This document shows, one piece after another, positions 5,831 to 16,981 of a stretch of 38,517 bases of DNA. A program made the translations under genes and the position numbers. The first letter of the stretch is position 1. Each line of letters opens with the position of its first letter. Where the stretch lies: contig NZ_CALWXV010000023.1 in assembly GCF_944385615.1 (NCBI RefSeq), positions 1 to 38,517 of the forward strand. The letters run 5' to 3'. The DNA comes from an uncultured Flavonifractor sp. GTDB taxonomy: Bacteria; Bacillota; Clostridia; Oscillospirales; Oscillospiraceae. The notes beneath the pieces are model-generated. The model saw only the letters and a list, made by a program, of their open reading frames with translations. It had not been told where the DNA came from and made no database searches.

Positions 5831-7375
5831 TCAGCTTTCAATTTTCCACTGGGCAAACTGGTAAAATAGATTCTGCTGGGTGGGGGTCAGGTCAGACAGG
5901 ACGCTCCACTGGGTGAGCACCGACCAGTTTTTGAAGCAGAGCACCGCAAATGGGGGCTCCTCTGCCAAACGCTCATAAAGCCGCTGGGCGCTCAGGTCCC
6001 GGCCCTGGCCGGAGGCGGCCCGGTAGGTCTGAAGGAGCTGGGCCGTCTCGGTATCGCTGTAGCCCCCGTAATTCAGGGACCCGCCGGCGGTGATGAGGGG
6101 GGTCAGATCAAAGTCGGCGGTGAGCCGCACCTCCCCCAGATAGAGGTCAAAGTTCCCCTTTTCCAGGGCGGAGATATAGCTGTCCCACTCCAGCTTGGTG
6201 AGGGTGGCGCTGATGCCCATGTCGTTGAGGCCGTTGACCAGGTGCTGGGCCGCCGCCGCCCGGTCGGCGTTTTCAGTGGACACCACCAGCTCCAGCTGGA
6301 GCTTCTGCCTGCCGTTGACCCAGCCGCTGTCGCCCCGGGTCCATCCCGCCTCGGTAAGGGCCTCGGCTACCGCCTGGGAGGAATAGCTCAGCTGCTCGGC
6401 CAGACTTTCCGCATACAGGGGGCTGGCAGGGGAGACAGGCAGAGCGGCGGCCTGGGCGTGTCGGGAAAAGAGGGCGGTAGCCACCGAGTCCCGGTCAAAG
6501 GCCCGCAGCAGGGCCTTCCGCACCCCCGCGTCCCGGCAGGGACCGCTGGTGGTGTTGAAGCCCACATACACCATAGTGGTGGTGGGATAGTCCACCGTGT
6601 CAAAGGAGCCGGAAAAGCCCAGGGCATTGGTGGCGGTCAGGTCGGTGCTCACCAGGGTGACCTCTTTGGTGTCAAAGGCCCGGATCAAATCGTCCGCCTC
6701 CTGCATGGTCCGCAGGGGGATGGCGTCCAGGCTCAGCTCCTCCCCCTGCCACCAGCTCTGGTTGGCGGTGAGGGTCAGCTCCTCCCCGCTCCCCGTCAGC
6801 ACGTAAGGCCCGGTGCCCAGGGGGGTGCCGCCGGTCTCCTTGACCACAGGGATATCCAGCAGGGCGGGCAGAGCTCCGTTGGCCCGCTTGAGGGTAATGG
6901 TGACCGTCCCCTCCCCGGCTGTGATGGCGGTAATATCGGTAAAGCGGGCAGAGTACAGGGTGCTGGTACGGGCCAGCTCCAAAGAGGACACCACCTCCGC
7001 CGCCGTCAGGGGGCTTCCGTCGGAGAAGGTAACGCCGGAGCGCAGGGTAAAGGTCCAGGTCAGCCCGTCGGCCGACATGGTATAGCCGGAGCACAGCTGC
7101 TCCTGGGGCTCAAACTGCTGGTCCAGCACAAAAAGCCCCTCATACATCAGCCCCGCCAGGGTCAGATTGGTGCGGTTGCCCCCGGTAATGGGGTGGAATC
7201 CCGCCTCCGGGTAGCAGGCCAGGGCAAATTCCAGCCCTGTGGGGGTGGCGGTGGGAGTAACGCTGGCGGTGGGCTGGACGGACTCCACCGGCGGCTCACC
7301 CCCGGTACAGCCGGTCAGGGCCAGACAGAGGGCCGCCCCCAGCGCCGCCAGCCGCAGTCGTGTTCGTTTCTTCAA
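5831..7375 (-). CDS. ABC transporter substrate-binding lipoprotein, family 5 (peptide/nickel type)
   Basis: Extracytoplasmic, lipid-anchored binding protein of the OppA/DppA class (SBP_bac_5), 514 residues. The signal peptide MKKRTRLRLAALGAALCLALTGC ends in a lipobox LTGC (Cys23), followed by a Pro/Thr-rich linker. Family features include the region FEPQEQLCSGYTMSADGLTW, TFTLRSGVTFSDGSPLTA, and GTGPYVLTG. The start is TTG at 7375: AAGGAGGGG lies 6 nt upstream and the signal peptide begins there. No permease or ATPase gene is beside it, so it is an orphan binding protein whose partner lies elsewhere. The ligand (oligopeptide, nickel chelate or other) cannot be told from the sequence. Confidence 0.88.
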   Translation of the reverse strand: MKKRTRLRLAALGAALCLALTGCTGGEPPVESVQPTASVTPTATPTGLEFALACYPEAGFHPITGGNRTNLTLAGLMYEGLFVLDQQFEPQEQLCSGYTMSADGLTWTFTLRSGVTFSDGSPLTAAEVVSSLELARTSTLYSARFTDITAITAGEGTVTITLKRANGALPALLDIPVVKETGGTPLGTGPYVLTGSGEELTLTANQSWWQGEELSLDAIPLRTMQEADDLIRAFDTKEVTLVSTDLTATNALGFSGSFDTVDYPTTTMVYVGFNTTSGPCRDAGVRKALLRAFDRDSVATALFSRHAQAAALPVSPASPLYAESLAEQLSYSSQAVAEALTEAGWTRGDSGWVNGRQKLQLELVVSTENADRAAAAQHLVNGLNDMGISATLTKLEWDSYISALEKGNFDLYLGEVRLTADFDLTPLITAGGSLNYGGYSDTETAQLLQTYRAASGQGRDLSAQRLYERLAEEPPFAVLCFKNWSVLTQWSVLSDLTPTQQNLFYQFAQWKIES

Positions 7376-7405: not shown

Positions 7406-7445
7406 AAAAAAATGTCTTTCCGGGAATTCACTTCCCGGAAAGACA
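7406..7445 (-). terminator. Intrinsic terminator closing repeat copy A
   Basis: Minus strand: a 14-bp stem (7445-7432 with 7426-7413), 5-nt loop, followed by seven T's at 7412-7406. It forms the last hairpin of the 138-bp element and should end the pgeF transcript. Confidence 0.9.
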
Positions 7446-7550
7446 CCCCGACCCGCGCCACGGGGCGCGAAACCGGGGGTATCGAGCCAAGTCGCCGGCG
7501 TTCCGCCGGCACGCAGGCTCGTATCTAGGGGGTATTGGGTACCCCCTAGA
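7413..7550 (-). repeat. 138-bp structured 3'-UTR element, copy A (after pgeF)
   Basis: Read on the minus strand the element holds: an 11-bp hairpin TCTAGGGGGTA/TACCCCCTAGA (7550-7524); an outer stem CGAGCC/GGCTCG enclosing a GCCGGCG/CGCCGGC hairpin; an ACCCCG/CGGGGGT stem enclosing CGCGCC/GGCGCG; and a terminal 14-bp terminator hairpin. The pgeF stop codon (7548-7546) lies inside the first hairpin. Copy B at 8456-8593 is the same length and about 90% identical by eye (14 differences). Three pairs of differences keep base pairing. I do not recognise it as a named RNA family. Confidence 0.85.
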
Positions 7551-8358
7551 GCAATGCGATCATGGCCGCCTGACTCCCCCGCTCCCCGTGGGTAAAGCGA
7601 TGGGACCAGTACTTGTCGTGGAGACAGGCGGTGCAGTCGGCAGACACGGCGATATGGGCCGGGTCCAGCCCGGCGTTTTCCAGCCGCCGGGCATTGAGGG
7701 CCTTCAGATCCACGTGGAACTTGCCGGTGGGCAGCACCTGGATACAGTGCAGGGCGGAGGCCCCCATGGCCTCGGTCATGGCGTTGGGCACGTCCTCGTG
7801 GGTCTCAAAGCAGCACTTGGAGATGCCGGGGCCGATGGCGGCCAGAATGTCCAGCCGCTGGCAGCCATAGCAATCCACCATCCGCTCTACCGCCTTGGCG
7901 GCAATGCCCAGGGCGGTACCCCGCCATCCGGCGTGGACCGCCCCCACCACCCGGCGCACCGGGTCGTAGAGCAAAATGGGCAGGCAATCGGCGGTAAAGA
8001 CGGTGAGCACCACCCCGGGGATGTCGGTGACCAGGCCGTCGGCCTGCCAGGGCTCTGGTTGATCCAGGCCGATACCCAGATCGGCGGAGGTGACCGAACG
8101 CACCGTATCCCCATGGACCTGACTGGCACATACCACCTGCTTGACGTCGGCCCCGATGGCGGCGCAGAACCGGCGGTAGTTCTCCTTCACCCGGTCCGGG
8201 TCGTCCCCCCGGTTCATGCCCAGGTTGAGGGAGTCATAGATCCCCTCCGACACGCCCCCCAGCCGGGTGGAAAAGCCGTGGGCCACCCCGCCGGCTTCCT
8301 CAAAGCCATCAGCGGCCAAATAGAGCAGGCCATTTTGATTGTGTTCCATGATGTTCAT
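7546..8358 (-). CDS. pgeF: PgeF/YfiH laccase-domain protein (purine nucleoside phosphorylase family)
   Basis: 270-residue protein of the multi-copper polyphenol oxidoreductase (YfiH, DUF152) family. Members have been shown to act on purine nucleosides (phosphorolysis of adenosine and inosine, adenosine deamination) and in E. coli to clean up peptidoglycan precursors. The metal site is visible: His82 in SQVHGDTV, Cys125 in TADCLPILL and His142 in VHAGWRGT. The C-terminus CTACLHDKYWSHRFTHGERG is also typical. The ATG at 8358 has AAGGAGG seven nt upstream. The gene stands alone between two copies of the 138-bp structured element, and its TAG stop is built into the first hairpin of copy A. A purine role would suit the purine-type genes farther on, but the distance is large. 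Confidence 0.92.
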   Translation of the reverse strand: MNIMEHNQNGLLYLAADGFEEAGGVAHGFSTRLGGVSEGIYDSLNLGMNRGDDPDRVKENYRRFCAAIGADVKQVVCASQVHGDTVRSVTSADLGIGLDQPEPWQADGLVTDIPGVVLTVFTADCLPILLYDPVRRVVGAVHAGWRGTALGIAAKAVERMVDCYGCQRLDILAAIGPGISKCCFETHEDVPNAMTEAMGASALHCIQVLPTGKFHVDLKALNARRLENAGLDPAHIAVSADCTACLHDKYWSHRFTHGERGSQAAMIALL

Positions 8359-8455
8359 GGGGATTCCTCCTTGGGGAACAGATCCGTTTGGGGGATTTGC
8401 AGAGCCCAATAAAGGCATTGGTCCGCCCAATTACAGACTGAATGGACATTAAATC

Positions 8456-8593
8456 TATTTTTTCGGGAATTCATTTCCCGGAAAAATACCTCGACCCGCG
8501 CCACGTGGCGCGAAACCGGGGGTATCGAGTCAAGTCGCCGGCTTTTTGCCGGCACGCAGACTCGTATCTAGGGGGTATTGGATACCCCCTAGA
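8456..8593 (-). repeat. 138-bp structured 3'-UTR element, copy B (after secA)
   Basis: Same architecture and orientation as copy A. The first hairpin is 12 bp (TCTAGGGGGTAT type, 8593-8567); the outer stem is CGAGTC/GACTCG, where copy A has CGAGCC/GGCTCG; the last hairpin (8488-8456) has T-A pairs where copy A has C-G. Unlike copy A, no U-tract follows the last stem, so it is a weaker terminator. It starts 7 bp past the secA stop codon. Confidence 0.85.
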
Positions 8594-8599
8594 CAGTTT

Positions 8600-11359
<2,760 letters not shown>

Positions 11360-15809: not shown

Positions 15810-16015
15810 GCCTGCCGCGCGCAGGACCTGTCCGCCTTCAGCGGACAGGTCCCACACTTGCAGACTGAGAAGTGTTTTCAGCCACGCACATGTCGCGGCT
15901 GAAAACAGATTGCCCCCTTTTCGCGCCTGCAGGCGCGAACTCTGCGAGGCTTTTTCACCGTGCCCTGTGGCGGCGCGGTGGTTTCGTATCCAGGGGGGAC
16001 AACGTCCCCCCTGGA
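15810..16015 (-). repeat. Multi-hairpin region after prs, related at one end to the 138-bp element
   Basis: This gene-free stretch is almost all hairpins. Reading the minus strand from the prs stop: a 12-bp stem TCCAGGGGGGAC / GTCCCCCCTGGA (16015-15989) followed by ATACGA; CACCG/CGGTG enclosing GCC/GGC (15980-15956); a 20-bp palindrome TTCGCGCCTG/CAGGCGCGAA (15939-15920); an 11-bp stem TGTTTTCAGCC / GGCTGAAAACA (15907-15873); a 12-bp stem GGACCTGTCCGC / GCGGACAGGTCC (15852-15824); and CCTGC/GCAGG. The first hairpin plus ATACGA matches the start of copies A and B (TCYAGGGGG...CCCCCYRGATACGA); the rest differs. It starts 7 bp past the prs stop. Confidence 0.75.
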
Positions 16016-16021
16016 CGGTTC

Positions 16022-16981
16022 TTACACGAAGAGCTTGGACACGGACACCTCTTCGTAGATGCGGCCGATGGCCTCGGCAAACATGTGGGCCACGGACAGA
16101 TACTTGATCTTGTCGCAGTTGACCCCCTCCCGAGCGGGGATGGTGTCCAGGAAGTAGAGCTCCTTGATGACGCTCTTCTCGATGCGCTCCACGGCGGGGC
16201 CGGAGAGCACGCCATGGCTGGCGCAGGCGATGACGTCGGTAGCGCCGCCGATCTCCACCAGGGCCTGAGCCGCGCCGCACAGGGACCCGGCGGTGTCCAC
16301 CATGTCGTCAAACAGGATAACCTTCTTGCCGTGAACGTCGCCGATGATGTTCATGACCTCGGAGGAGTTGGCCTTCTGGCGGCGCTTGTCCACGATGGCC
16401 AGACCCATGCCCAGCTTCTGGGCAAAGGCCCGGGCCCGGGCCACGGAGCCCACGTCGGGGGAGACCACGATGATCTCGTCCTCATGGCCGGCAAAGCGGT
16501 CGTGGAGGTAGTTGGTGAAAATGGGGTTGCCCAGCAGATTGTCCACAGGGATGTCGAAGAAGCCCTGGATCTGGTTGGCGTGCAGGTCCATGGTGAGCAC
16601 CCGGTCGGCGCCGGCACGGGTGATCAGGTTGGCCACCAGCTTGGCGGAGATGGGGTCGCGGGGCTTGGTCTTACGGTCCTGGCGGGCATAGCCGAAATAG
16701 GGCATCACGGCGGTGATGCGCCCGGCGGAGGCCCGCTTCAGGGCATCGATCATAATGAGCAGTTCCATCAGGTTGTCGTTGACCGGAGAGCTGGTGGACT
16801 GGACCACGAACACATCGGAGCCGCGGACGGTCTCGTAGATGGAGACAAAGTTCTCCCCGTCGGAGAAGGCGCCCACCTCGGCGTTGCCCAGCTCCATGCC
16901 CATCTCCTTGCAGATAGCCTCAGCCAGAGCGCGGTTGGAAGTGCCGGAAAAGATCTTGATGTCCTTACCGTGTGCGATCAT
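16022..16981 (-). CDS. prs: Ribose-phosphate pyrophosphokinase (PRPP synthetase)
   Basis: Makes PRPP from ribose 5-phosphate and ATP for purine, pyrimidine, His, Trp and NAD synthesis. 319 residues, class I size. Motifs: FSGTSNRALAE at the N-terminus, MPYFGYARQDRKTKPRDPIS (ATP-binding flexible region), the MDLHANQIQGFF loop, and the PRPP-binding signature VILFDDMVDTAGS with Asp225/226. The ATG at 16981 has AGAGG about 11 nt upstream. glmU ends 75 bp upstream with no terminator between, so glmU-prs is likely one transcript, as in other Firmicutes. Confidence 0.98.
   Translation of the reverse strand: MIAHGKDIKIFSGTSNRALAEAICKEMGMELGNAEVGAFSDGENFVSIYETVRGSDVFVVQSTSSPVNDNLMELLIMIDALKRASAGRITAVMPYFGYARQDRKTKPRDPISAKLVANLITRAGADRVLTMDLHANQIQGFFDIPVDNLLGNPIFTNYLHDRFAGHEDEIIVVSPDVGSVARARAFAQKLGMGLAIVDKRRQKANSSEVMNIIGDVHGKKVILFDDMVDTAGSLCGAAQALVEIGGATDVIACASHGVLSGPAVERIEKSVIKELYFLDTIPAREGVNCDKIKYLSVAHMFAEAIGRIYEEVSVSKLFV

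Follow-up and report, generated by a model that had tools for sequence, protein, structure and literature searches.

A four-hairpin repeat behind Flavonifractor stop codons and its probable origin from a MITE with IS1182-type ends

The element described here can be set beside several known systems. Transposons of the IS1272/IS1182 family resemble it in their DDE transposase family, in taking an inverted repeat as target and in the duplication of a whole stem-loop, which the IS1272 model assigns to pathway b, acting at both ends, next to a pathway a that replaces the stem-loop (PMC5678879, in the part available). The element differs in being a short, gene-less passenger whose target hairpins are terminator-like, and its tested copies with terminal inverted repeats (TIRs) mostly duplicate the target, whereas the available part of that paper reports replacement without a target-site duplication. 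The pneumococcal BOX, RUP and SPRITE repeats are likewise short, hairpin-forming and MITE-like, with BOX being modular and SPRITE lying near 3' ends and resembling terminators; yet they are over-represented between convergent genes according to the text available of PMC3049150, whereas the Flavonifractor form of the element is GC-rich and found mainly between co-oriented genes, right behind their stops. Finally, the REPs of Escherichia coli are also extragenic palindromes, and a subset lying no more than 15 nt from the stop codon has been reported to stall ribosomes, with cleavage of the mRNA (PMC12306157, accessible sections), which makes REPs near stops the nearest tested precedent for what a post-stop position could do. 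As far as the accessible portion of PMC3733652 describes them, REPs are single palindromes of 20-40 bp, whereas the element consists of four hairpins in a fixed order, and its relatives bear IS1182-type ends.

A literature search, carried out mostly at the level of records rather than full text, found no published description of the element. The best reading, with a rough probability of 0.6, is that it is a MITE with IS1182-type ends, of which an end-less ("naked") Flavonifractor form has been kept at operon junctions as an intercistronic array of RNA hairpins.

Copies in the window and conservation of their fold

The window, a stretch of 38,517 nucleotides from an uncultured Flavonifractor sp., contains two copies of equal length (138 nt), each forming four hairpins in series on the minus strand, which is the strand of the genes. 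Copy A (7413-7550; 168.1 bits in the genome search) stands at the 3' end of pgeF and consists of H1 (7550-7524), H2 (7521-7483), H3 (7478-7446) and H4 (7445-7413), while copy B (8456-8593; 169.5 bits) stands at the 3' end of secA with H1 at 8593-8567, H2 at 8564-8526, H3 at 8521-8489 and H4 at 8488-8456. The gene names follow from profile matches to NF009538 (1240 bits) for secA (8600-11359, minus strand) and to TIGR00726 (181 bits) for pgeF (7546-8358, minus strand), which is both the host of copy A and the gene downstream of copy B. The downstream neighbour of copy A (5831-7375, minus strand) resembles a gene for an ABC-transporter substrate-binding protein, with a match below the curated cut-offs. 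The stop codon of pgeF (7546-7548) falls within H1 of copy A, and a gap of 6 nt separates the secA stop from H1 of copy B. Seven U (7406-7412, minus strand) follow H4 of copy A, and this tract is found in the pgeF copy alone among four copies of the same genome that were checked (secA, pgeF, ftsW and rplI).

A gapless alignment of copies A and B gives 124 of 138 identical positions, and an independent repeat search recovers the pair as 143 nt at 89%. The original prediction, which had counted 14 differences by eye, was right in that count and in three pairs of compensatory differences, located on the minus strand in H2 (C-G to T-A) and H4 (G-C to A-T and C-G to T-A), although its title had called the repeat exact. 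It was also right about the two gene names, the nearness of both copies to a stop codon, the stop codon inside the first hairpin of copy A and the U-tract missing from copy B. In copy B, three further base pairs found in copy A are broken or missing. Compared with dinucleotide shuffles, the folds have z-scores of -7.9 (copy A) and -7.6 (copy B).

The genome of origin (G000; 87 contigs, 2.69 Mb) holds five full copies, located behind pgeF, secA, ftsW (before murG), rplI (before dnaB) and dnaB (before tilS), with the gene names at sites other than secA and pgeF read by eye. A covariance model built from these five copies, R1, found matches in 19 of 60 genomes searched, all 19 of them among the 20 searched from the same genus (own included); the 40 genomes from outside the genus gave no match at the stricter filters used there. 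A pattern scan of named genomes, with the H3 core as query, returned at least 116 stretches, and the matches listed come from Flavonifractor, Pseudoflavonifractor, Agathobaculum, Butyricicoccus, Angelakisella massiliensis (dozens of copies among those listed) and an uncultured Oscillospiraceae assembly; one phage contig was added as a further carrier. No match was found in the phage and plasmid collections searched. The proposed comparison with Rfam gave no family matching the element at the gathering threshold and only sub-threshold matches at a relaxed one.

A third copy in the window, overlooked in its first reading, lies at 15868-16018 on the minus strand, 6 nt behind the stop of prs (ribose-phosphate diphosphokinase by profile match; 16022-16981, minus strand), and scores 37.8 bits against R1 with a z-score of -7.6. 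This copy has H1 and a decayed H2 in common with the others and a different 3' half, an arrangement that recurs by eye among the weaker genus matches. The element therefore occurs in two types with a common H1-H2 and unlike 3' halves, the copy behind prs being type II.

To examine conservation of the fold, 30 copies of the Flavonifractor type, including the phage copy, were aligned over a named structure of 50 pairs. Paired cells amount to 94.3%, against 83.1% in shuffles and 34-50% in slid versions, and cells changed on both sides number 172 against 56.3 in shuffles (sd 6.3) and 11-35 in slid versions, with only 21 cells changed on one side; since the sequences are related, these are not counts of independent events. 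Further pair types are fewer than in shuffles (38 against 42.9). The covariation falls mostly in H2 and H4, while H1 varies little in sequence and H3 hardly at all. Comparison of 20 orthologous pairs of copies shows compensated changes at the secA, pgeF, ftsW, efp, ntpK and purH sites and none at rplI, together with broken pairs (up to 7, in the efp set). The type of H2 at pgeF differs between G000 and G006, so part of the apparent compensation is exchange of a whole module. The covariation is strong, and the copies almost certainly form a repeat family with a conserved fold.

Whether this reflects selection on the RNA, as originally proposed, is a separate matter. The covariation fits such selection and stops short of proving it, because in a palindrome both arms may also change jointly at the DNA level. 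RNase P RNA of the same genus (14 loci of 18 found), taken as a control, has 51 two-sided against 17 one-sided changes, and the element by the same method has 187 against 31, a comparison that leaves selection at the RNA level and correction at the DNA level undistinguished. After this control, the absence of G-U intermediates was dropped as proof of DNA-level correction. A long alternative pairing of H1 with H3, GGGGGTATC with GATACCCCC, was likewise set aside by eye, without a count, because H1 variants lose the pairing with no compensation in H3.

Several other features were observed along the way. One H1 variant carries about 50 nt of extra loop with a GC-rich hairpin of its own and occurs in several species (L005 1358-1439, L032, L045, L079, L090, L130, L152, L160). 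The RNase P RNA of the genus (L345-L358) has one hairpin that varies by about 100 nt, with two unrelated-looking types of insert between species. Another dispersed repeat, with GGGGGAACCAGTTCCCCC as its H1 after GCGCC, lies mostly away from sense stops (L299, L300, L307, L316, L323, L336) and looks like a further family having the first hairpin in common.

Position behind stop codons and alleles at orthologous junctions

The strong copies comprise 36 genus matches of at least 100 bits, examined in two rounds (25 and 11). All except one lie in sense orientation at the stop codon of the upstream gene, from a few nt inside it to 9 nt behind; among these 35 is L038, in which the 5' arm of H1 is gone. 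The exception, L026 1307-1453 on the minus strand in G019 (158.7 bits; also L145), is the only antisense strong copy of the genus, its neighbour genes running the opposite way. Weaker matches follow the same pattern less strictly, 32 of the 42 examined lying at a sense stop and 10 not. The survey of positions covered 69 matches, which remained from 90 after removal of 20 opposite-strand echoes and one cut duplicate and which include the phage copy and one match that reaches 100 bits in the second search only. Genes were called with a home-made caller based on codon usage, and two of the 35, the purH-purD copies L304 and L309, were placed by direct reading. In view of 35 of 36 strong and 32 of 42 weaker copies at sense stops, the Flavonifractor arrangement is intercistronic and nearly always sense.

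The genes on either side of a strong copy mostly run in the same direction, and the next start is often a few dozen nt away. The housekeeping operon junctions occupied include secA-pgeF, ftsW-murG, rplI-dnaB, purH-purD, ntpK-ntpF, efp and others. In the orientation count, all 31 rows of the naked class are co-oriented, which is not an independent count, as the class was defined by an upstream gene end at most 12 nt away. Closeness to the stop codon, taken alone, may mean that the slot between the stop and the ribosome-binding site is the only one tolerated.

Behind pgeF, which was found in 19 of the 20 genus genomes, the full element is present in 7, type II in 2, remnants in 2, an ordinary terminator in 4 and no gap at all in 4, and a second pgeF-like gene of G006 has no element. 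The orthologues show that the element at pgeF occupies the place of the terminator; it may also terminate transcription there. At secA-pgeF, read in 15 genomes, G000, G004, G001 and G013 carry the element and G012 a remnant. The shortest empty alleles (G003, G008, G014) consist of stop and ribosome-binding site only, and several others have unrelated palindromic repeats instead. At ftsW-murG, read in 20 genomes, the element occurs in G000, G015, G006 and G017 and is decayed or of type II in G013 and G019; in the remaining genomes it is absent, some having other palindromes. As the shortest empty alleles are free of hairpins and others hold unrelated palindromic repeats, replacement of a stem-loop is not demonstrated at these two junctions. 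Of the four secA copies, three have right-hand junctions that match by eye; judged without a tree, this favours descent with losses over repeated insertion.

That naked copies are able to enter new sites is indicated most clearly by a phage contig (L168): one lies there between a gene for a major head protein (phrog_283), 2 nt past its stop, and that for a head-tail adaptor (phrog_132). The 18 relatives read at this junction, out of 52 other loci found and with several of them near-identical, all lack the element, and in 12 of the 18 the next gene starts, by eye, at or a few nt from the stop codon. With many copies, patchy presence at orthologous sites and this phage copy, the suggestion that the repeat spreads has held up. 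In several related phage contigs (L376-L380), the gap behind the gene for the major head protein contains other stretches that are rich in hairpins or resemble repeats; most of the relatives read have next to no gap there.

Relatives with terminal inverted repeats

The same core, comprising H1-H4 in a row and an A/T-rich tail, is bounded by TIRs like those of IS1182-family transposons in Angelakisella and in some members of Butyricicoccus and Agathobaculum. Copies of the Angelakisella type have a fifth hairpin, H0, before the core, beginning with TGAGCGTGTCGAAAAA, and a tail ending in the inverted counterpart of TCAGACTGTAGAAAAA, so that the ends of the MITE are TGAGCGTGTCGAAAAA (5') and TCAGACTGTAGAAAAA (3'). 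H0 directly adjoins a terminator-looking hairpin behind the host gene, and the same hairpin stands again beyond the 3' end. This duplication was tested in 36 of 85 insertions, 34 of them of the Angelakisella type, after 19 had been dropped for lack of a recognisable H0 or nearness to an edge and 30 for lack of a 3' end fitting the pattern used or nearness to an edge (49 in all). The flanks repeat above 99% of swapped flank pairs in 31 of the 36 (median 27 bp, range 15-43) and show no repeat above this threshold in five, and folding energies of -12 kcal/mol or better are reached by 35 of the 36 upstream flanks. The two Butyricicoccus/Agathobaculum-type sites tested are split, one with a duplication and one without; by eye, the hairpin is duplicated at L053 and L111 of this type.

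At naked Flavonifractor copies, including those of the window, no TIRs were seen by eye. Flanking target-site duplications, which the original prediction had named as evidence that would tell against it, were likewise not seen by eye at the naked copies and are present at the TIR-bearing relatives. The TIR-bearing form has no bias in gene orientation, as 30 of its 71 rows lie between convergent genes, 12 in sense tandem and 10 in antisense tandem (19 having one neighbour uncalled). In Angelakisella massiliensis, tandem arrays of 2 to about 10 units are found at a spacing of 149-150 bp (L112 560-2060; L086 4940-5870; L166), every new unit beginning at the H4 loop of the preceding one. L112 also holds a molybdenum/tungsten cofactor riboswitch at 6710-6846 (RF01055, 72.6 bits).

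The ends of the MITE were compared with those of IS1182-subgroup transposons, CAGNCTGTCGAAAAAG and CAGCCTGTAGAAAAACC, and the left-end CTGTCGAAAAAG and right-end CTGTAGAAAAACC of the transposon match its 5' and 3' ends, respectively. Flavonifractor An10 (G017), a genome with naked copies, encodes a transposase matching NF033551 (IS1182) at 370 bits, above the cut-off of 270, in a transposon with ends CAGGCTGTCGAAAAAG and CAGCCTGTCGAGAAAG and a 36-bp palindrome on each side, the two being identical at 34 of 36 positions. A search of 295 Oscillospirales genomes at E 1e-80 found related transposases in 11, and a palindrome directly precedes the same end motif, by eye, at 13 of the 16 related transposon loci. 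Five transposons, including that of An10, were seen at both ends, three with the same palindrome on both sides and two with different ones. The searched genomes of Angelakisella, Butyricicoccus and Agathobaculum (G060-G064) and G000 yielded no IS1182 transposase above the NF033551 cut-off, which leaves the hosts of the TIR-bearing form without a demonstrated mobilising enzyme. A search of A. massiliensis for an IS1182 transposase of its own yielded as sole candidate a 329-aa gene with other ends, which is presumably IS5-like. Eight near-identical copies of a presumably IS5-like transposase gene, some in tandem, are present in A. massiliensis (L220), and the gene beside the copy read there looks like an erm-type resistance gene.

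Short, non-coding, intergenic and present in many copies, with TIRs and duplicated targets in its relatives and ends in common with an IS1182-family transposon, the element is very probably a MITE with IS1182-type ends in those relatives. The naked Flavonifractor copies probably derive from it, and an origin from an IS1182-type MITE is well supported. As insertion duplicates a whole target terminator hairpin, the MITE is most likely moved in trans by a DDE transposase of the IS1182 subgroup that acts on stem-loops. In Flavonifractor, the ends would have been lost before or during spread.

Competing explanations and possible function

A different structure-seeking mover, either RAYT/IS200-IS605 of the REP type or group IIC intron machinery, would account for palindromic, extragenic repeats beside terminators, and REPs are tied to RAYT. 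Such a mover is nevertheless highly unlikely, above all for the TIR-bearing forms, since the ends and the whole-hairpin duplications fit the IS1182 subgroup. It could also be speculated that the element is a mobile transcription terminator, with H4 ending the upstream transcript in place of the host terminator. At copy A, H4 with its seven U is indeed one of three terminator-like sites per 1.4 kb (1.2 expected), and at four orthologous pgeF sites an ordinary terminator stands instead. A U-tract behind the last hairpin is nevertheless rare across the family, as at least six T within 9 nt behind H4 are present in only 4 of 30 copies, three of these being pgeF orthologues; H4 is thus not a terminator in general, and the suggestion that the repeat brings its own terminator fails as a rule. 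Strong copies also sit mostly between co-oriented genes close to the next start, and this explanation appears very improbable. A cis-regulatory or protein-binding RNA, riboswitch-like or leader-like and recognised through the sequence-conserved H1 and H3, would fit the strong sense bias and alignment A3, where 8 of 13 H3 pairs are invariant and none is changed on both sides, whereas H2 and H4 covary. However, the conservation of H3 in the pattern-scan loci is built in, as the H3 core was the query, type II copies keep their position with another 3' half replacing H3 (by eye), and Rfam gave no match at its gathering threshold, making recognition of this kind improbable.

The copies might instead be selfish relics without host function, tolerated in the gap at gene junctions and with arms kept complementary by hairpin-templated correction of the DNA. 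This explanation agrees with the patchy distribution and the losses seen at three orthologous junctions, with the remnants of G012 and G019 and with arms that change together (the 172 two-sided against 21 one-sided cells). Tolerance leaves the sense orientation of 35 of 36 strong copies unexplained, however, and orthologous sites of several species have for the most part preserved the structure. As RNase P of the same genus has a two-sided excess too, the argument from DNA correction is weak, and relics of this kind seem unlikely on balance, if worth serious consideration. The reading of a MITE whose naked form is kept as an intercistronic hairpin array combines a part on origin with a part on function, and for the latter a functional RNA module between cistrons is possible, at somewhat less than even odds.

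Any transcript that runs across these operon junctions must carry strong hairpins between its two cistrons. The array would most likely serve as a 3'-end barrier or processing site, by analogy with some E. coli REPs, and thereby uncouple the amount of upstream mRNA from that of downstream mRNA. Perhaps the element also slows ribosomes at the stop. A more specific and rather unlikely version holds that a transposon passenger was domesticated into a genus-wide post-stop RNA module, nearly always sense and with an exchangeable set of hairpins, which sets the product ratios of neighbouring genes.

With dozens of transposon-type ends placed on terminator-like hairpins, and the whole hairpin duplicated, the stem-loop-target model for IS1182-family transposases becomes directly testable. 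In addition, closely related gut bacteria offer a natural series in which the same junction occurs with and without a strong post-stop hairpin array, making the effect of intercistronic palindromes testable at housekeeping genes. Should the reading as a domesticated module be true, a module placed where the ribosome leaves one cistron would set the ratio of neighbouring gene products.
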